Shown here one piece after another: positions 6,739-15,031 of a DNA stretch of 32,130 nucleotides (its first letter is position 1; each line of letters opens with the position of its first letter). The notes under the pieces are model-generated. The model ran no database searches. It saw nothing but the letters and a program-made list of their open reading frames with translations, and was not told the origin of the DNA. The stretch comes from Microcaldota archaeon (GTDB lineage: Archaea > Micrarchaeota > Micrarchaeia > Micrarchaeales > CABMGC01): NCBI GenBank assembly GCA_021804105.1, contig JAJZKP010000009.1:1-32130 (forward strand), in the 5' to 3' direction. The translations under genes and the position numbers were made by a program.

Positions 6739-8604
6739 TTACTTCTCTACCTTGAAGTTGGCATCAACAGTATCCCCATCCCCTCCAGCTCCTGGTTCCG
6801 GACTCTGGCCTGGCTGACCCGATTCAGGTCCCGGTCCTCCGCCTTCAGGTCCCTGCCCCTGACCGTACATACCCTTACCTATTTCTTGGAGTACGTCCCT
6901 CAACTCATCCATCTTCGCCTTCATCCCGTCGTAGTCTTCCTTCTCGATCACTTCCTGGAGTGCAGCCCTGGCCTTCTCAATCTTGTCAGCAAGCTCTTTA
7001 GGCACTTTATCCTTGAACTGTTTCACCGTGTGCTCAGTTGTGTATATCATGGCCTCGGCGTCGTTCCTGACCTTGACCTTCTCCAACTCCTTCTTGTCTG
7101 CCTCGGCAAACTCTTCTGCTTCCTTGACTTTTTTCTCGATGTCATCCCTGCTCATCTTGTTGGGCGCCACAACCTGCATGCTCTGCTCCTTCCCTGTAGC
7201 CTTGTCCTTGGCGCTTACATGCAGTATTCCGTTTGCATCTATATCGAAAGTAACTTCTATTTGGGGAACGCCCCTTGGTGCTGGTGGTATGCCCTGGAGC
7301 TGGAACCTTCCCAACGCCACATTGTCCTTGGCCATAGGCCTCTCGCCCTGCAGTATGTTTATATCTACTGCAGGTTGGTTGTCGTCAGCAGTGCTGAATG
7401 TCTGTGTTTTCTTGATCGGTATGGTGGTATTCTTTTCTATTATCTTTGTCATTACCCCCCCTAGCGTCTCAAGGCCAAGTGAGAGGGGAGTTACGTCCAG
7501 GAGGACTATGTCTTTCACCTCTCCGGTAAGCACTCCTGCCTGTATTGCTGCACCGAAAGCGACTGCTTCCATCGGGTCTACGCCGCGCTCTATCTTCTTA
7601 CCCAGAAACTGCTCCACATATCTCTGCACTATGGGCATTCTTGTAGGTCCTCCCACAAGTATTATCTTGTCTATGTCCTTTGGCTCCAGCTTAGCGTCCT
7701 TGAGCGCCTGTATAACGGGCTTTGTTGTCTTTTCGACTATGGGCTGCACTATATCCTCAAGTTTTGCCCTTGTGAACGAGTATGTGAAATGCACAGGGCT
7801 GTTGTTAGGCCCCATGGTGAGGAAAGGCAGGTTTATCTCGCTTGTAAGGGTTGTTGAAAGCTCTATTTTCGCCCTCTCCCCCGCTTCCCTGAGTCTCTGC
7901 ACAGCCTGCTTGTCGTTTGAGATGTCTACCCCCGACTGTTTCTTTATCTCCCCAAGCAGGAAAGTAACTATGGCATTATCCATATCTGTGCCCCCAAGCT
8001 GCGTGTCACCGTTCGTGGACTTGACCTCAAAGACACCATTCCCGAATTCCATTATAGTTACGTCAAGCGTGCCGCCTCCGAAGTCGTAAACCAGTATTTT
8101 CATGTCCTTACCAAGCTTGTCGACTCCGTATGCCAGTGACGCTGCTGTAGGTTCATTGACAAGCCTTACCACTTCCAACCCGGCGATTTCTCCCGCATCC
8201 TTGGTGGCCTGCCTCTGGTTATCATTGAAATACGCAGGCACCGTGATCACTGCCTTCTTCACTTCCTCTCCAAGGAATGCCTCTGCGTCCTTCTTTATCT
8301 TCTGCAAAAGTATTGCTGATAGCTCCTGTGGCGTATAATCCTTGCCGAATATCCTGTACTTGAAATCAGTACCCATCTTTCTCTTGAACGCATTTACCGT
8401 GCCGTCGGTATTCGCCACAGCCTGCCTCTTTGCCGGTTCTCCAATCAGTCTCTGACCATCCTTTGTAAATGCCACATAGCTAGGGAAAGACTTCCCATAA
8501 AGCGATGTACCTTCTGCACTCGGGATAAGCACAGGCCTCCCGCCTTCAAGTACCGCAGCAGCGCTATTTGATGTTCCCAAATCAATTCCTATTATTTTTG
8601 CCAT
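6739..8604 (-). CDS. dnaK: Molecular chaperone DnaK (Hsp70)
   Basis: ATP-dependent Hsp70 chaperone. The nucleotide-binding domain starts with [15 protein letters not shown], has [16 protein letters not shown] and [13 protein letters not shown]; the interdomain linker [15 protein letters not shown] is intact; substrate-binding and helical lid domains follow. The tail is Gly/Pro/Gln-rich and ends in FKVEK instead of the bacterial EEVKD-type tail. The length of 621 residues is typical. It sits between grpE (8 bases upstream) and dnaJ (5 bases downstream), so the three parts of the folding cycle are made together. Starts at ATG 8604 after GTGGTAAT. Confidence 0.98.
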
Positions 8605-8612
8605 ATTACCAC

Positions 8613-9176
8613 TTATTTTGTTTCTCCAGGATTCTCTTCCTCGTTCTTTTCCTCTACACTGCCATTCGACACGATGACAGATGCGGGTCTTAGCATGATC
8701 CCGTTTAATGTGTATCCTTTCCTCACAACTTCTAGTATAGTGCCCTCATTTTCTTTGCTTGCCTTGGCAAGCATTATCTCGTGTTTATAGGGATCGAATT
8801 TTCCGTCTGCCTCTATCTCCTTGAGCCCCAGGCCTTTCAGCGCATTCACAAGGTTAGAGTAAACGAGCTTTATGCCCCTATCCTTGCCATCGCTATTCAT
8901 TGCAGCCATAGCCAACTCCAATTCATCCAGGCTCGGTAATATCTTTGATATTGCCTCTGCTTTCCCTACATTCTTAGATCCTTCTATCTCCTTTGCAACT
9001 CTTTTCTTGTAATTGTCAAATTCTGCTGCGAGCCTGACCAGTCTCTCCCTGATTGCGTCCGCAGTTTCTTGACCCTCATTTTGATTGCCTTGTTCCTCTG
9101 TCCGTTCATCCTTGCTCTCCGGAGCAGCATTTTTCCTGGCTTCATCAGCGTCTTCTTCGTTCTTTTCTTCTGCCAT
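8613..9176 (-). CDS. grpE: Nucleotide exchange factor GrpE
   Basis: Exchange factor that releases ADP from DnaK. It has an acidic, low-complexity N-terminus, then a long coiled coil ([20 protein letters not shown]), a four-helix region and the C-terminal beta-wing ([20 protein letters not shown]), which is the family signature. The 187 residues are in range. I chose ATG 9176 (MAEEKNEED) because GGGAGAT lies 4 bases upstream; an in-frame start at 9200 would add eight residues. The 5' end overlaps the 3' end of the upstream regulator gene by 32 bases in another frame, which suggests translational coupling. Confidence 0.95.
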
Positions 9177-9588
9177 GAGTATCTCCCTCAAGTATCTCAT
9201 CCAGTTTCTCCGCCATGGCCATCATGCGCTGGAATTCGCGCATCATGTCCGCCTGAAGCTCCTCGAGAGTGCTTTCCATGTCTTCTGATCTCAGGTAATA
9301 CTTCCTCCCTTTCCTGACTACAAGGCCGGAATAGATGAACCTGTTAAGGTGGTATATTACTGTGGTGCGTGGAGCTTCCAGCTTGCTGTTTAGTTCCTTG
9401 CTCGTAACTCCGTCGCCTTTCCTGCTCCCGCTTATTATTTCCTTGAGCATGAAGGGCTCAAGACCCTTCTTCTCATCCGACAGGTCAAAAGCCTGCAGGA
9501 ACCACGACACGAGTGTATCAACATCTTCCTTCTGCGGCCTGCCAACCGGCTTTATTACCAACTTCTCTTCGGTTGCCATGGGATGCAA
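9145..9588 (-). CDS. Winged-helix transcriptional regulator heading the grpE-dnaK-dnaJ operon
   Basis: DNA-binding protein of 147 residues. After an N-terminal tail, VTSKELNSKLEAPRTTVIYHLNRFIYSGLVVRKGRKYYL (residues about 64-102) reads as a helix-turn-helix plus wing of the ArsR/MarR-like type. A C-terminal amphipathic helix (MESTLEELQADMMREFQRMM) probably dimerises it, followed by a very basic tail (GRRKERRRR). As first gene of the chaperone operon it is the obvious candidate repressor of heat-shock genes, analogous to HrcA/HspR in bacteria or Phr in Pyrococcus, but it is not recognisably any of these. Start ATG 9588 (or 9579) lies about 24 bases from a TATA box, suggesting a leaderless transcript. 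The repressor role is inference. Confidence 0.8.
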   Translation of the reverse strand: MHPMATEEKLVIKPVGRPQKEDVDTLVSWFLQAFDLSDEKKGLEPFMLKEIISGSRKGDGVTSKELNSKLEAPRTTVIYHLNRFIYSGLVVRKGRKYYLRSEDMESTLEELQADMMREFQRMMAMAEKLDEILEGDTHGRRKERRRR

Positions 9589-9593
9589 TAAAC

Positions 9594-9626
9594 AATACAG
9601 CCTTTAGATATATAAATGTTTGTATT
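9594..9626 (-). promoter_or_regulatory. Heat-shock operon promoter with inverted repeat around the TATA box
   Basis: A TATA box (ATTTATATATC, minus strand, 9617-9607) lies 24 bases before ATG 9588. It is flanked by a perfect 6-base inverted repeat, AATACA (9594-9599) and TGTATT (9621-9626), symmetric about the box. A dimeric repressor bound here would block TBP. The site is the natural candidate for autoregulation by the adjoining winged-helix protein. Confidence 0.5.
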
Positions 9627-9742
9627 ATTTCAACAAATCATTGTAAATAACCATATTATATTGTCTATTTACCACTTTTCCTAATAATGCATGCGACAAT
9701 GCTGTGGCATCATCATATGGCAAATGATTGTCATGGTTGTAG

Positions 9743-9750
9743 TATAAATA
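9743..9750 (+). promoter_or_regulatory. TATA box for the thioredoxin/NHL operon
   Basis: TATAAATA lies about 30 bases before the GTG start at 9780; GAGG at 9772-9775 is a short ribosome site. The rest of the 9627-9742 gap shows only an imperfectly supported repeat, GACAAT (9695-9700) with ATTGTC (9727-9732). Confidence 0.5.
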
Positions 9751-9779
9751 CTTTCGATCAAACATGTTGTTGAGGACCT

Positions 9780-11306
9780 GTGAACAGCATACTAGACATA
9801 CTCTCACCTTTCAATATATTCACCGAGAAGGAATTCCCGCCAGGTTCGGTCTGGCCCAATCTTAGCGAGCCGTTGCGCCTCGAAGACCTTAAAGGCAACG
9901 TGGTTATACTTGATTTCTGGACATACTGTTGCATAAACTGCATGCACATGCTGCACGAACTTGAGGAAGTGGAGAAAAAATACACGGATTCGCCGGTCAT
10001 AATCATCGGGGTGCATTCGGCCAAGTTCGCAAACGAGAAGGATAAGCGGAACATAGAGAACGCCATAGCAAGGTATGACATAAGGCACCCAGTGGTGATA
10101 GACAACGACATGAAGATCTGGAGGGCTTACGGCTCGCAAGGGTGGCCTACTATAATGATAATAGATCCTACCGGCAAGATCGTGTATCGCCAATCCGGCG
10201 AAGGACAGGTTACCAGCATTGAGCATACAGTTGACAGGCTTCTTGAAGAAGCCAAGAAAAACAATACCCTAAAGCCGCGCGTGCGCATGAAACTGGTCGG
10301 CCAGAAGAAGCACGGATCCATACTATCGTATCCTGGAAAGCTTGCATTATCCCCTGACGGCTCAAGGCTAGCGGTAAGCGACTCTGGCAACAATCGTATA
10401 CTGATAATAAACCTTAATAACAATGTAATAACAACATCTATAGGCGGCGTCAACCCTGGGTTTGCTGACGGTAACTTCGCCAAAGCGCTCTTTTACAGGC
10501 CACAGGGAGTAGCATGGCCTAAAAATGATATTATCTATGTTGCAGATACAGACAACCATTCAATAAGGCAGATAGACCTGGATGAAGAATGCGTTTCTAC
10601 CATAGCCGGTACAGGACACGAATCCAATTGGCTAGCCCTGGGCGGGGATGCATTGAAAGTAGCACTCAACTCTCCGTGGGACATTGCATACAACGAAGGC
10701 ATGCTATATATTGCCATGGCAGGTACGCACCAGATCTGGAAATACAACATAAACAAGAAGGACATACGCCCGTTTGCCGGGAGCGGCTACGAGGGCATAG
10801 AGGACGGAAAGGGGATGGGATCTTTGCTGGCACAGCCTAGCGGACTCAGCGTCAGCGGCGATTATATCTACTTTGTCGACAGCGAAGCTTCTGCTATCAG
10901 AAGGGCAAGCATTTCGACACAAAGGATAGAGACCTTAGTAGGCACTGGTCTATTCAACTTTGGCTATAAGGACGGCAAGTTCGGGCAGGCGCTATTCCAG
11001 CACCCGCTTGGCATCTGCACAGGCGATTCTAACTTATATGTTGCAGATACTTACAACGGCATGATAAGGATGCTTGATCTAAAGAAAGGCGAAGTCAATA
11101 CAGCGGTCGGAGGCAAGGATCATTACGGCATGTGCAAGTTCGATGACCCAAAATGCGATGTGTTGGGCCTTTACGAGCCTGGGGATGTCAAGATGGGCAA
11201 TAGAAAGCTGTATATTGCCGATACCAACAATCATCTCGTCAGAGCATTCGACTTAAACGAGAAAGTGCTAACGACCCTGGAGTTGTCAGAAAGGCTGAAG
11301 ACATGA
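9780..11306 (+). CDS. NHLRC2-like thioredoxin-fold / NHL beta-propeller protein
   Basis: Two-domain protein of 508 residues. Residues about 15-150 form a thioredoxin/TlpA-like domain with FWTYCCINCMHML. This CCxxC active site (Cys50, Cys51, Cys54) is the hallmark of the NHLRC2 family. HPVVIDNDMKIWRAYGSQGWPT supplies the conserved cis-Pro region. Residues about 170-500 are a six-bladed NHL propeller with repeated YVADTDNHSIRQIDL-type blades (VADTYNGMIRMLDL, IADTNNHLVRAFDL). There is no signal peptide or membrane helix, so it is probably cytosolic. The family occurs from bacteria to humans; its biochemical role is poorly defined. Starts at GTG 9780 and shares ATGA with the next gene, so the two are translationally coupled. 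Confidence 0.85.
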   Translation: MNSILDILSPFNIFTEKEFPPGSVWPNLSEPLRLEDLKGNVVILDFWTYCCINCMHMLHELEEVEKKYTDSPVIIIGVHSAKFANEKDKRNIENAIARYDIRHPVVIDNDMKIWRAYGSQGWPTIMIIDPTGKIVYRQSGEGQVTSIEHTVDRLLEEAKKNNTLKPRVRMKLVGQKKHGSILSYPGKLALSPDGSRLAVSDSGNNRILIINLNNNVITTSIGGVNPGFADGNFAKALFYRPQGVAWPKNDIIYVADTDNHSIRQIDLDEECVSTIAGTGHESNWLALGGDALKVALNSPWDIAYNEGMLYIAMAGTHQIWKYNINKKDIRPFAGSGYEGIEDGKGMGSLLAQPSGLSVSGDYIYFVDSEASAIRRASISTQRIETLVGTGLFNFGYKDGKFGQALFQHPLGICTGDSNLYVADTYNGMIRMLDLKKGEVNTAVGGKDHYGMCKFDDPKCDVLGLYEPGDVKMGNRKLYIADTNNHLVRAFDLNEKVLTTLELSERLKT

Positions 11307-12178
11307 TAAAAGGAATACCGAACTCTATTGACGGGAAACTTGTAACATTCCTTGCTACCGATAGGCTTATACTAAACGGATTTCTGGTAGAGAAAGAAAG
11401 CTCGCGGTCATGTATAGTCTATGTGCATGGGATGACCGGGAATTTCTACGGCGGCCTTCTCTCAAAGACACTTGCCAAGCGTGCACTCAAATACAACTAC
11501 TCCACTTTTGTAGTCAATACGCGGGGCCATGATATCTTGAGTAGCGGCAGGCTCGCAAATCAAGCAATGAAGCATGTTACTATAGGTACAATGGTGGAAA
11601 AATTCGAAGACAGCATAAAGGATCTAGACGGTGCACTTCGATACCTTAAAAGCATTGGATATGCCAGGTTCTTTCTTGTAGGGCATAGTACTGGCTGCCA
11701 GAAAATACTATATTACCAGTACGTGCGCAAACGCAGAGATGTTAAGGCGCTGGCACTCCTTGCTCCGGATGACGACTACAACCTGAATAAAAGGAACTTG
11801 GGAAACAAATGGAGAACTACTGTGTCCCGGGCCAGGGTACTGTCAAGGACAAGGAAAAGCAGGGAATACAACCCCGGCATCCCTTTCTCTCCAGCCCGTT
11901 TCATGTCTATCGCAGACCCGAAGAGGATCGAGGCAAGGCTATTCAACTACGAAGGCGGGCTTGTAGAATTTACCAGCGTGAATACCCCTATGTATGTTGT
12001 TTTCGGGACAAAGGATGAAGGCGCAGTAAAGCCGGTAAAGGAATATGTCGCAACGCTCTGGAGAAAGACCTCATCAAGCAACTATGGGTCGCTAATAATA
12101 AAGAACGCACGCCATTCCTTCAGTGGATACGAGAAAGTAGTCTCTGACTCTGTAATCAAATGGATCTCCAGCATCTAA
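11303..12178 (+). CDS. Alpha/beta hydrolase
   Basis: Serine hydrolase of the alpha/beta fold with no signal peptide. The oxyanion segment is VYVHGMTGNFYGG (residues 39-51), the nucleophile elbow GHSTG puts Ser129 in place, and Asp238 (GTKDEG) and His271 (NARHSF) complete a plausible triad. The overall pattern (NTRGHD, nucleophile, long lid from about 158 to 220) resembles DUF1749-like hydrolases; the substrate is unknown. The ATG overlaps the upstream stop codon by four bases, so it works in an operon with the thioredoxin/NHL protein. The stop codon overlaps the stop of the convergent gene by four bases. Confidence 0.85.
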   Translation: MIKGIPNSIDGKLVTFLATDRLILNGFLVEKESSRSCIVYVHGMTGNFYGGLLSKTLAKRALKYNYSTFVVNTRGHDILSSGRLANQAMKHVTIGTMVEKFEDSIKDLDGALRYLKSIGYARFFLVGHSTGCQKILYYQYVRKRRDVKALALLAPDDDYNLNKRNLGNKWRTTVSRARVLSRTRKSREYNPGIPFSPARFMSIADPKRIEARLFNYEGGLVEFTSVNTPMYVVFGTKDEGAVKPVKEYVATLWRKTSSSNYGSLIIKNARHSFSGYEKVVSDSVIKWISSI

Positions 12179-12750
12179 ACTGGCTTGTTCCTACTCCTTC
12201 TTCCAAGGAAGACCACCGCAAGTATCACAATAATGATTATTGCTGCAATCAGTGCGTATAGTTCAACAGGGGATCCGGAAGTGGAGCTCTGTGTCTGTCC
12301 AGGTGCTTGGCCAGACGCACCGGAGCTATTTGTAGGTGCTGACTGCGATACTATTATCGTAAGCACGGCATTGTTTGTACTTGGATCATCACCTGTTGCA
12401 CTGAGCATTGCCTTGTACGTGCCTGGCTTTGCGAACTGGGTAAGTTGTATCGATAGAACCCCGCTGAAAGGTGGCTCACCAGTATTGACGCTGGGGCTAA
12501 GGTCAATCCCCAACTGCTGTAATGCGCTCTGGTTGTCTATGACTAGATTTGTACCCCACGTCTTTCCACTTGACAAGTTTACGGTATATCCTACAGTGGC
12601 TGCGCCTCCCAGCGCAACAGTAACGCTGCTACTATTAAGCAATATTGTAGACGTGCCATAGCCGCCTGCGGCATGTGCTGTGGTAATAAGCATCATGGCA
12701 ATTATTGCTGCTGTTAATCCAATCTTCGGGGTACCAACCATCCAAACCAC
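12175..12750 (-). CDS. Secreted or cell-surface protein with C-terminal membrane anchor
   Basis: Not recognised by family. It has an N-terminal signal sequence (IGLTAAIIAMMLITTAHAAGG, cleavage likely after AHA). A beta-rich domain of about 110 residues (TVALGGAATVGYTVNLSSG, FSGVLSIQLTQFAKPGTYK) resembles an Ig-like/CARDB-type extracellular module. A Ser/Gly/Gln/Thr-rich stalk follows, then a C-terminal membrane helix (ELYALIAAIIIIVILAVVFL) with a basic stop-transfer tail RRSRNKPV. It is thus predicted to be anchored and to face outward. A TATA box at 12771-12784 places the transcript start at about GTG 12750 (leaderless); ATG 12741 is the alternative start. Function unknown. Confidence 0.7.
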   Translation of the reverse strand: MVWMVGTPKIGLTAAIIAMMLITTAHAAGGYGTSTILLNSSSVTVALGGAATVGYTVNLSSGKTWGTNLVIDNQSALQQLGIDLSPSVNTGEPPFSGVLSIQLTQFAKPGTYKAMLSATGDDPSTNNAVLTIIVSQSAPTNSSGASGQAPGQTQSSTSGSPVELYALIAAIIIIVILAVVFLGRRSRNKPV

Positions 12751-12770
12751 AATTAGATGTATATTGGTAT

Positions 12771-12814
12771 GTTATATTATAAACGTAACTGATCAGGCCA
12801 AGGAACCTTGGGCC
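12771..12814 (-). promoter_or_regulatory. Promoter of the anchored surface protein with upstream hairpin
   Basis: On the minus strand GTTTATAATATAAC (12784-12771) is a good TATA box. Directly upstream, GGCCAAGG AA CCTTGGGCC (12796-12814) is an 8-bp inverted repeat with one bulged G. It could be the transcription end of the upstream minus-strand gene (stop at 12863) or an operator. No T-run follows, so a classical terminator is not supported. Confidence 0.4.
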
Positions 12815-12862
12815 TTAGCTTGACAGTAATGCCATACGCCACAAAGCGACCCGCTGGCTTGG

Positions 12863-13195
12863 TCACTCGCCCTGCACAGCGAGCCTTCTCAGCGACTTCA
12901 TGGAAATATTCGGAAATGTCCTTCTAAAGGCTGCCGCATTGATCCTTGCCTGGCTTATCATTGCTGGAGTTCCCAATCCTCCGACTACCATTGCCCATGC
13001 AACTACGTTGCCATGCGATACATCGATATGTACTCCCATGGCTGTTCCTACTGCACCAGCAACGCCTACTCCTGCCGCGAGTACCGCGCCTCTCCTAGCC
13101 CCTATAATATCCCTAGCTGCGCTCTCCGGGCCTATTGCTACGAACCTATCCTGAGCATGCCTTATATATCGTTCTCTGAAGGTCATCGAATTCAC
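12863..13195 (-). CDS. Hypothetical small membrane protein
   Basis: Not recognised. It is 110 residues with a basic, polar N-terminus (FRERYIRHAQDRFV), then two hydrophobic Gly/Ala-rich segments (AVLAAGVGVAGAVGTAMGV and VVAWAMVVGGLGTPAMI) likely to form a membrane hairpin, and a basic C-terminal tail (FRRTFPNISMKSLRRL). A TATA box (TTTTATATATC, minus strand, 13227-13217) lies 27 bases before GTG 13195, arguing that this is an expressed, leaderless gene; ATG 13186 is an alternative start. It is divergent from the membrane-tethered regulator at 13392, so the two may share control sequences. Confidence 0.55.
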   Translation of the reverse strand: MNSMTFRERYIRHAQDRFVAIGPESAARDIIGARRGAVLAAGVGVAGAVGTAMGVHIDVSHGNVVAWAMVVGGLGTPAMISQARINAAAFRRTFPNISMKSLRRLAVQGE

Positions 13196-13216
13196 GCTAT
13201 TCTATATCACTTTCCT

Positions 13217-13227
13217 GATATATAAAA
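13217..13227 (-). promoter_or_regulatory. TATA box of the small membrane protein gene
   Basis: TTTTATATATC (minus strand) lies 22-32 bases before GTG 13195, the spacing expected for a leaderless archaeal transcript. Confidence 0.5.
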
Positions 13228-13251
13228 GACCATGAAAATGCACAATTTCTG

Positions 13252-13307
13252 GGCCATCTTTGATTAAACTGCGCATGGATGGCCTGAGGAATGACATATG
13301 TTATGTC
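13252..13307. promoter_or_regulatory. Two inverted repeats in the divergent 13196-13391 intergenic region
   Basis: GGCCATC (13252-13258) and GATGGCC (13278-13284) form a 7-base inverted repeat with a 19-base spacer. GACATA-TGT-TATGTC (13293-13307) is a perfect 6+6 palindrome with a 3-base spacer, the size of a dimeric winged-helix operator. Both lie between the divergent TATA boxes at 13217-13227 and 13359-13365. They are candidate operators for the regulator gene that follows. Confidence 0.45.
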
Positions 13308-13358
13308 CTTGTCTTATAAGAGTAAAACCTTCAAAAAACCTATTCTTCCGGTAACCAA

Positions 13359-13365
13359 TTTATAC
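13359..13365 (+). promoter_or_regulatory. TATA box of the membrane-tethered regulator
   Basis: TTTATAC lies 27-33 bases before ATG 13392, the spacing for a leaderless transcript. This supports ATG 13392 as start over the in-frame codon at 13371. Confidence 0.45.
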
Positions 13366-13391
13366 CTGCATTGATATGGATTATTGATTTT

Positions 13392-14276
13392 ATGAGCAAA
13401 ATGCTAGAAACCAAGAACAAGATTCTAGCCCTTCTAAAAAGTCGGCAGATGACAATAAGCGAACTGAGCAGGGAGCTTAAACTCTCCACAGCAACAGTAA
13501 GCCAGCACATGGATGAGCTGCAGCGGATGGGATCAATAGAGCGAGTGGAGAACCGACACTTCAAGAAATTGAAGTATTACCGAATAACTGAGCACACAAG
13601 CGAGGCAAGGCAGCAGGTCATGCCCATGGCAAGGTACCTTGCCGGAGTTGCTGTAGTTATCGTAGTCCTTGCATTCATGGTTGCTGTGTACACTCCGGGG
13701 CTGTTTAAGCGCAGTCAGAGTTCACCCGTAACCACAACAGCTCCAAATTCCAGCGCCGTACCAGCAATAACAAGTACTGCTTCAGCACCCTCTCCTGCAG
13801 GCGTGCAGTCGCTAGCATGCCCTATGATTGCATATACGCTAAACGGGAGCATAAGTGGGTACACTGGAGCAGACTTGTATAATATCAGTTACAACAACGG
13901 TACAGTAGCCGATTATGCAATCAGGGCTGGCTCTAATGCCACGCTGAATGTTACTGAACTTGTTGAAAACGTGCTTAACCTTAACTCAAGCATAAATTAC
14001 AACAGGCAGCATTCAATGATACTATTCCGCGAAGGCCAGGGATTCAACGAGTCGCATCCTGGCATTAGCATGAGCATAACCCCTGCCACTTACAACGCAG
14101 TTGATAACGAGACACTGCATGCTACTGCAACACTCTCCGTGAATGCCAGTGCCAGCGGCACATACTGGCTGTACATAGACGGCCCATGCGGAGGAGGAGT
14201 AAGGCCGGTGTTAATAACCATAGGGAGCAAGCCGTACAACGGCACTGTCATCATGCCTTCCGGCACATTCATATGA
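13392..14276 (+). CDS. Membrane-tethered winged-helix regulator with extracellular domain
   Basis: One-component transmembrane regulator by layout. Residues about 1-70 are a winged helix of the ArsR/MarR type (MTISELSRELKLSTATVSQHMDELQRMGSIERV); one membrane helix follows (ARYLAGVAVVIVVLAFMVAV). A Ser/Thr/Pro-rich stalk of about 45 residues leads to a 130-residue outer domain with many N-glycosylation sequons (NGS, NIS, NGT, NAT, NVT, NSS, NES, NAS) and three cysteines (ACP, and PCGGG near the end). The DNA-binding part would be cytoplasmic and the sensor outside. Archaeal HTH-membrane proteins of this kind are known, but the outer domain is not recognised. ATG 13392 fits a TATA box at 13359. 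The gene is convergent with the next one across a hairpin. Confidence 0.75.
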   Translation: MSKMLETKNKILALLKSRQMTISELSRELKLSTATVSQHMDELQRMGSIERVENRHFKKLKYYRITEHTSEARQQVMPMARYLAGVAVVIVVLAFMVAVYTPGLFKRSQSSPVTTTAPNSSAVPAITSTASAPSPAGVQSLACPMIAYTLNGSISGYTGADLYNISYNNGTVADYAIRAGSNATLNVTELVENVLNLNSSINYNRQHSMILFREGQGFNESHPGISMSITPATYNAVDNETLHATATLSVNASASGTYWLYIDGPCGGGVRPVLITIGSKPYNGTVIMPSGTFI

Positions 14277-14291
14277 TCCGGCACGGTGTAT

Positions 14292-14312
14292 CATGCAAGA
14301 CGCACTTGCATG
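14292..14312. terminator. Hairpin between convergent genes
   Basis: CATGCAAG (14292-14299), a 5-base loop, then CTTGCATG (14305-14312): a perfect 8-bp stem in the 53-base gap between two convergent stop codons. The placement suggests a bidirectional transcription end. No T-run flanks it, so intrinsic termination is inference. Confidence 0.45.
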
Positions 14313-14329
14313 GTCAGAGGCTGTACTAC

Positions 14330-15031
14330 CTATGCTTTTCTAGAAAGGGCCTTTAGTAAGTCTTCCATTGATTTAATTGCTTCTTCCTGGAGGCTATCAA
14401 AAGATATCATGTTGTGCATGCCACTCCTCCCTGAATCGCTTATCGCAAAAGCACGTATGATTCCGTTGTTATCACACAATACGCCATTCCCTGTCTTGAA
14501 TATGTCCCAGCATGCTTCGGCGAACGCGATGTGATTTGCCTTGCCTGAAAAATTAAGGTCTTTTACTACAAGAAGGCTTACCATCAACTCCGCATAATAA
14601 GGCACATTCTCAAGAGCCGCCCAGCTTGCCAGAGTAGTTGAGTTCATTGGATTAGTGCCTGCCCATCTGCGATCTCCCACAATTGCCCCGGCAACGTAAT
14701 CAAAAGACTTAGCGCTTGCGCTTTCCCTAAGTCTCTTGCCTGCTGCTGATCTAGAGGCACTGCGTTCTGCTGTCTTTGCAGCATGCAACGCAGCGTTTCC
14801 AGCAGCATCTTCGCTTCTAGGATTAATGCCTGCCCTGATTTCTGCTTTCATAGCTGCATTTATGGCATCAGGCCAGGTAGCACCTACTGATATCTCAACT
14901 GCAATGCCCTTTGCCTTTAGGTCCTTTGCAAGCTCCCTAAGCCTCTTCAAATCCGAATGCCAGAACCTCACGTTCTTAATGCCTGATACGAAATCGTTGG
15001 CCTCTTTGAGAAAATGTTCATGCATCTGCAC
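14330..15031 (-). CDS. Hypothetical protein, Ala-rich, helical
   Basis: Not recognised. It has 233 residues, no signal peptide and no membrane helix. The N-terminal third is charged and helical (FWHSDLKRLRELAKDLKAKGIAVEISVG). The middle is Ala/Ser/Arg-rich (GNAALHAAKTAERSASRSAAGKRLRESASA), and the C-terminal third contains FAEACWDIFKTGNGVLCDNNGIIRAFAIS. The ALENVPYYAELMVSLLVVKDL segment could be a buried core helix. The start is unclear: GTG 15031 or ATG 15025. Neither has a convincing ribosome site, although GGTGGT lies about 27 bases upstream. A TATA box at 15096-15109 suggests its own promoter. Its convergent neighbour ends 53 bases away. Confidence 0.6.
   Translation of the reverse strand: MQMHEHFLKEANDFVSGIKNVRFWHSDLKRLRELAKDLKAKGIAVEISVGATWPDAINAAMKAEIRAGINPRSEDAAGNAALHAAKTAERSASRSAAGKRLRESASAKSFDYVAGAIVGDRRWAGTNPMNSTTLASWAALENVPYYAELMVSLLVVKDLNFSGKANHIAFAEACWDIFKTGNGVLCDNNGIIRAFAISDSGRSGMHNMISFDSLQEEAIKSMEDLLKALSRKA

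Follow-up and report, generated by a model that had tools for sequence, protein, structure and literature searches.

What lets a host-dependent archaeon pass a signal from its surface to its genes? Two-component systems are scarce in the host-dependent DPANN archaea, with one reported in the account of the first complete Micrarchaeota genome (PMC5847659). A gene on contig JAJZKP010000009.1 (assembly GCA_021804105.1; the 32,130-nucleotide stretch analyzed is called the window here) raises this question in a specific form: does its product, P0001, join the cell surface to DNA in a single chain, and which DNA element would it read? The features of the locus are collected in Table 1.

Table 1. Features of the P0001 locus (window coordinates; strand as + or -)
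Feature	Position	Strand	Description or basis
Divergent 110-aa protein, no operator facing it	12863..13195	-	94.5% identical in the C21 copy; no Pfam family
Inverted repeat GGCCATC (13252-13258) / GATGGCC (13278-13284), judged not conserved	13252..13284		Both arms altered in the C21 copy
Palindrome GACATATGTTATGTC, perfect 6-bp arms, judged not the operator	13293..13307		Disrupted in the 90%-identical C21 copy; no enrichment in the bin
Proposed operator AAAACCTTCAAAAAACCTA, tandem direct repeat	13324..13342	+	Conserved upstream of family members
TATA-like box TTTATA of the regulator promoter	13359..13364	+	35 nt from operator start
Regulator P0001, membrane-tethered one-component, 294 aa	13392..14276	+	Open frame from ATG 13392
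MarR/ArsR-type winged helix, residues 1-67	13392..13592	+	Pfam HTH_5; model fit to ZitR 5yi1
Recognition helix, residues 33-45	13488..13526	+	Model and 14-orthologue comparison
Single membrane helix, residues 77-100	13620..13691	+	Model and strongly hydrophobic sequence
Ser/Thr/Pro-rich stalk, residues 101-142	13692..13817	+	Composition; pLDDT <50 in the model
Outer beta-sandwich domain, residues 143-294, sequon-rich, with Cys143 and Cys266	13818..14273	+	Model, orthologue comparison and sequon count

Architecture of the regulator and its locus

P0001 and its orthologues have the start M-[S/G/T]-K in common. Residues 6-47 matched Pfam HTH_5 (E 5e-9), and HTH_11, HTH_24, MarR_2 and TrmB likewise scored above cut-off; Trans_reg_C was absent from the best 25 of the 40 Pfam matches, and the top Pfam and structural matches were ArsR/MarR-type. 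In the full-length AlphaFold2 model (mean pLDDT 70.4), helices 2-17, 22-29 and 33-45 and a wing (49-53/61-65) come first, then the helix at 77-100, a stalk predicted as disordered and, last, the all-beta outer part. Model residues 4-67 fitted ZitR (5yi1) with Z 12.8 over 64 residues at 1.1 A, the top fit to a MarR/ArsR chain. Within the recognition helix, Ala34, Thr35, Ser37, Gln38 and His39 are invariant (n=14 orthologues), and half of stalk residues 103-140 (50%) are Ser, Thr or Pro.

The outer 193 amino acids contain 11 sequons against a shuffle mean of 3.5, a count reached in 0 of 2000 shuffles, while residues 1-80 contain 0. When the outer domain was modelled alone, as the first-pass annotation of the window had suggested, an all-beta, Ig-like sandwich of eleven strands was predicted (pLDDT 84.4, pTM 0.81). 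Cys143 and Cys266 are invariant among the 14 orthologues, down to 29% identity, and the segment GTYW..DGPCGGG..TIG..PYNGT is almost invariant in the same set. A structure search with the outer domain gave no match that stood out (best Z 8.6, 105 residues, 2.8 A), the matches at Z 6-8 including carbohydrate-binding, S-layer and pilus-chaperone beta domains, and a profile search of PDB sequences returned nothing below E 0.48. Surface binding would be compatible with the predicted Ig-like fold, no particular partner being claimed, and a redox or folding signal with the invariant cysteines, by analogy with ToxR, where such a signal has been studied. Two relatives of the outer domain occur without a winged helix, at G043:C7:173638-174138 (L232) and on G023:C13 (L233); one is anchored and the other has a signal-like N-terminus. 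The tandem site described below lies upstream of L233 (2 mismatches), and none lies upstream of L232.

Pfam, model and composition together confirmed the one-chain order of winged helix, membrane helix, stalk and sequon-rich outer domain that the first-pass annotation had proposed. There is good support for its broader proposal that a small archaeon has a one-component regulator linking surface and DNA: the named relatives belong to Candidatus Micrarchaeota, and a MarR/ArsR winged helix with a beta-sandwich outer domain is predicted. The layout, a single chain holding both a DNA-binding domain and a membrane helix, supports placing P0001 among the transmembrane one-component regulators (TTRs), and the conserved operator described below supports the predicted control of transcription from the membrane.

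The bin (G000) is 805 kb long, 74.6% complete and 4.2% contaminated. Window positions 8376-14437 have a second copy in it, on C21 (L039), in which gene order is unchanged and DNA identity is ~90% over 6 kb. C11 and C26 each hold one of two near-identical paralogues of DUF4382 type (L004, L003). The doubled locus and the near-identical paralogues probably represent a second strain binned together, not a duplication. The divergent small frame that had been noted beside the regulator is present, and no match to it was found beside the more distant orthologues. Further away, a thioredoxin-like domain fused to five NHL repeats is encoded at 9780-11306 (+) with an alpha/beta hydrolase directly after it (11303-12178), and 12175-12750 (-) encodes a small protein, likely a surface protein, with a signal-like N-terminus, sequons, a C-terminal membrane helix and no family match.

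A tandem repeat upstream of the TATA box

The first-pass annotation had named two elements between the divergent genes, the palindrome and the GGCCATC/GATGGCC repeat. Both are there, but the meaning given to them did not hold, since they occur near chance frequency and are broken in the C21 copy. The intergenic stretch contains 3 inverted repeats with arms of at least 6, a number reached in 42 of 500 shuffles, and 2 with arms of at least 7 and at most 30 bp between them, reached in 50 of 300. At the homologous positions the C21 copy reads GACCTATGTTCTGCC for the palindrome and GGTCGTT...GCCGGCC for the other repeat. A genome-wide search over the whole bin found 1 exact palindrome and four matches with 2 mismatches, against 3 for the backward control, and the region upstream of the nearest orthologue lacks the palindrome; absence near orthologues was the outcome that the annotation itself had said would speak against its proposal. 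Thus, although perfect 6-bp arms between two divergent genes could suggest that GACATATGTTATGTC is the operator, both of its sides are broken at 90% DNA identity, it is single in the genome and its near hits stay at control level. We rejected it as highly improbable. Of the idea of a DNA element in the promoter region, the element chosen was the wrong one, and the adjacent tandem repeat at 13324-13342 had been overlooked.

The half-sites of AAAACCTTCAAAAAACCTA (13324-13331 and 13335-13342) stand head-to-tail with the core AAAACCT. Their period of 11 bp is about one DNA turn, and both half-sites would therefore lie on one DNA face. The TATA-like box follows 16 bp after the operator end. In the C21 copy ~160 nt are added after the palindrome region, and homology comes back at 13311, just before AAAACCTTCAAAAAACCTA. 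Indeed, the site is kept while the flanking DNA diverges: 11 of the 13 named orthologue loci have it within 1 mismatch, the exceptions being L103 (4 mismatches) and L104 (5).

A motif-free test on 78 non-redundant upstream regions found period 11 in 37 (~1 expected), period 12 in 12, and every other period in 0-3. We then scored the pattern AAAACCKANNNAAAACCKA on the gene's strand in 81 members, which are the 85 family rows minus four lacking the N-terminus: 28 had it within 1 mismatch and 47 within 2, against 0 and 0.06 in shuffles. At the same two thresholds the controls gave 0 and 0 (backward), 1 and 2 (opposite strand), 0 and 2 (10-bp period) and 1 and 6 (12-bp period). The 34 members that have no site within 2 mismatches include some with the [A/G]CG class described below or a 12-bp period, and some that show no site at all (for example G055, G003:C55 and G050:C6:55441). 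A search with a wrong motif of 10-bp period, kept as a control, gave 4 sites within 1 mismatch in 60 genomes, 0 of them before family members, and 2 sites against 2 controls within 2 mismatches in the own genome.

The position of the site relative to the promoter is also constant. Counted from the start of the site, a TATA-like hexamer begins 32-37 nt downstream in 55 of the 64 members scored. In most members 14-17 bp separate the site from the TATA box downstream of it, while the spacing between TATA and the start codon varies. Relatives across the Micrarchaeota order have the site at the same TATA distance.

Scanned blind for the exact site with TATA, 164 genomes of the order yielded 28 sites against 0 backward controls. 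One site lies at a contig end, and 23 of the 27 assessable sites stand directly before a winged-helix membrane regulator; of the other 4, one precedes SIMPL, two precede secreted proteins and one an ABC ATPase. In the same run, which recovered the 164-genome result, 137 other genomes of the phylum had 0 sites with TATA. If the repeat were a general strong-promoter element of the order, its fixed TATA distance would follow; its rarity and its concentration before one gene family reject this explanation, to which we give practically no credence. Before the ABC ATPase gene (L256, G118:C47:7904) there are at least three tandem AAAAC[C]GAA units; a search of G118 for the regulator family found none, and the site there is unsupported.

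Among 60 relatives, 43 sites within 1 mismatch were found against 11 backward controls, 28 of them before family members. The regulator family is present in 47 of the 60, often with two or three members per genome that differ in their outer domains; a common alternative is DUF4382 (PF14321), found in all 3 of the other regulators scanned. Among named loci, the closest come from Candidatus Micrarchaeota MAGs (LSA5.bin112, 89%). The cultured Candidatus Micrarchaeum sp. A_DKE, which we take to be Ca. Micrarchaeum harzensis of the co-culture paper, has a family member (L106) with a different outer domain and the exact operator AAAACCTAACAAAAACCTA upstream.

Recognition helices, further candidate targets and the proposed circuit

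Differences in the repeat core go together with differences in the recognition helix encoded downstream. Helices of the form [x]AT-VSQH go with CCT, PST-VSQH with CCG, and PST-VSKH with GCG or ACG; by residue, Ala34 marks CCT, Ser34 CCG and Lys38 [A/G]CG. The second core was CCT in 16 of 18 members with Ala34 and [N]CG in 29 of 31 without it; likewise, [A/G]CG was found in 8 of 8 members with Lys38 and CC in 40 of 41 without it. A tree took in 63 of the 81 members (at least 8 of 10 A positions and a readable helix), with 49 having a scorable core per comparison, and gave one supported independent pair, which was not significant; we therefore do not claim significance. Because the changes on the tree are few, on few independent lineages, and the test had no power, the covariation is a strong hint and not proof.

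Members of at least two classes with scored sites occur together in 14 of the 60 genomes, and in most of these every gene is preceded by the site type of its class. The Lys38 members of G025, G041 and G043 match their class poorly, as does the Ser34 member of G026. Outside the first 60, G084 has three helix types with CCT, CCG and GCG sites, and G088 has one member with a CCG site and another without a site. The simple rule fails for Lys-Ser-Thr helices that go with a mixed CCG/CCT site. These data bear on the possibility that another regulator of the same lineage reads the repeat, the membrane proteins being only its targets, as sites before non-regulator genes might suggest. A single outside reader predicts one site type per genome, whereas the site variants follow the recognition helix of the downstream gene, also among paralogues of one genome, and nearly all exact sites with TATA precede this one family. 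We regard an outside reader as very unlikely.

In the genome of P0001, the other close site lies before P0002 on another contig. P0002 is a SIMPL-domain protein (PF04402, DUF541; E 1.6e-13; score 51.8 bits, cut-off 25.2; profile positions 1-205 of 205) with an N-terminal hydrophobic anchor. The SIMPL promoter carries the site in G000, G008, G026 and G039, that is, in 4 of 9 genomes with a P0001 orthologue and 0 of 23 without (Fisher, p 0.0035). In G012 the SIMPL gene starts 15 nt behind the regulator stop, and when this operon is counted the figure becomes 5 of 9 (p 0.0006); leaving out G008, a near relative of G000, gives 3 of 8 (p 0.012). SIMPL has no site in 4 of the 9 orthologue-holding genomes (G001, G022, G025 and G036). 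SIMPL was found in 36 genomes, of which G017, G019, G030 and G051 were left out of the site comparison. Comparison across genomes thus shows SIMPL as a second putative target of the regulator.

Fifteen sites within 1 mismatch in the 60 genomes do not precede the regulator, and the six with the right geometry all lie before anchored or secreted proteins: SIMPL (G000, G026 and G039), a sequon-rich membrane protein (G026), an Ala/Asn/Gly-rich secreted protein (G020) and a DUF4382-like protein (G040). The sequon-rich anchored protein is divergent from a family member (G026:C6), and the DUF4382-like outer domain has no winged helix. A secreted protein of G023 that resembles the P0001 outer domain has a site with 2 mismatches. 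The other nine sites, about the control level, are mostly intragenic or lack a correctly placed TATA, with one before an APC permease. Homology between the site-bearing secreted proteins of G020 and G084 is not clear. The well-placed non-self sites all look to serve outward-facing proteins and therefore fit an envelope role.

Taken together, the comparison showed the architecture, the conserved site with its fixed TATA distance and its near-exclusive link with the regulator, besides the SIMPL gene. From this we propose, as the probable reading, that these proteins are membrane-tethered, autoregulated one-component regulators of envelope genes and likely activators. The outer beta-sandwich, held on its stalk outside the cell, would sense a surface state, which might be the contact or envelope stress suggested by the first-pass annotation; passed on by the single membrane helix, this state would change how the cytoplasmic winged helix pairs or how far it reaches. 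On the AAAACCT repeat, two such domains would sit side by side, head to tail, an arrangement that we infer, as we do binding by P0001 and activation. MarR/ArsR-fold proteins usually bind palindromes as dimers, which counts against the reading of a direct repeat; the 11-bp period and the fixed TATA distance would suit two side-by-side tethered winged helices contacting TFB or TBP. From the site the regulators would most likely aid TBP/TFB binding, so that the circuit would probably be positive autoregulation with activation of one or a few envelope genes.

Archaeal activators are described just upstream of BRE/TATA, as for TFB-RF1, Ptr2 and, on some genes, TrmBL1 (PMC5937170, PMC4158304). Because the site occupies this position, positive autoregulation is favoured. 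The main rival keeps the repeat as the operator and makes the protein a repressor, which would hold its own and the SIMPL promoter low until an outer signal releases them. Negative autoregulation is common among MarR/ArsR-type proteins, and position alone cannot prove activation. However, archaeal repressors are reported to overlap or follow BRE/TATA (PMC4158304, PMC5937170), and most members have the site where an activator would stand; repression appears rather unlikely.

Beyond positive autoregulation, it is possible, rather than likely, that the paralogous receptor-regulators form parallel, mutually insulated surface-to-DNA wires, each with its own outer domain, of the P0001, DUF4382 or another type, and its own operator variant read by helix positions 34 and 38, and each switching on itself and one or two surface proteins, including free outer-domain copies. 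If so, they would be a main form of transmembrane signalling in archaea with almost no two-component systems, and possibly the way these archaea register their host. The paralogues, with their differing helices and operators, also form a natural series in which to follow regulator divergence without cross-talk. The surface of the cell seems directly wired to its genes: the protein spans from DNA to the outside, and in relatives a matching tandem address usually stands before the family gene and sometimes before those of other surface proteins. Receptor, operator, promoter geometry and first target were all derived from sequence comparison alone. A_DKE, with the exact site upstream of its family member, exists in co-culture (PMC8975820), which makes the proposal open to experiment.

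Comparison with known membrane and archaeal regulators

Membrane one-component regulators are a known kind (PMC10269533, PMC6396743, PMC8517210, PMC5430869). No account of the P0001 family or its site was found in the open-licence literature, supplements aside, nor in the portions covered of PMC5847659 and PMC8241124. Bacterial ToxR and CadC share with P0001 a cytoplasmic winged helix, one membrane helix and an outer domain (PMC8517210, PMC5430869). Their winged helices are OmpR/PhoB-type, whereas that of P0001 scores as MarR/ArsR-type, in archaea with TBP/TFB promoters. ToxR is described as reading the direct repeat TNAAA-N5-TNAAA, and the CadC domain as resembling PhoB on pho box DNA (PMC8517210, PMC5430869). 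Like ToxR, the P0001 family has a direct repeat, of 11 bp and by conservation only, and we do not claim membership in the ToxR family.

ArnR and ArnR1 of Sulfolobus are, like P0001, archaeal membrane-bound one-component regulators with an N-terminal HTH, and they activate surface-structure genes (PMC6396743). They are described with two C-terminal membrane helices, an inner HAMP/sensor part, inverted-repeat sites and no large outer domain (PMC6396743). P0001 has one membrane helix, 77-100, followed by an all-beta domain, and its conserved element is a direct repeat, the inverted repeats present not being conserved. TFB-RF1, Ptr2 and TrmBL1 resemble the P0001 family in having sites directly upstream of BRE/TATA and activate by TFB or TBP recruitment; unlike it, they are soluble and have mostly palindromic sites (PMC5937170, PMC4158304). 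The MarR/ArsR proteins ZitR, AdcR and ST1710 share the fold of the DNA-binding domain and lack the membrane helix and the outer domain. Their sites are palindromic.

Alike in layout are the TTRs of Demey et al. 2023 (PMC10269533), which combine a DNA-binding domain and a single-pass helix in one chain with an outer sensor, and for which archaeal cases are known. The main text of that study mentions neither 'Micrarchaeota' nor 'DPANN' nor the P0001 family. To the TTRs, the P0001 family would add a shared tandem operator, site variants matched to the recognition helix and swapped outer domains.
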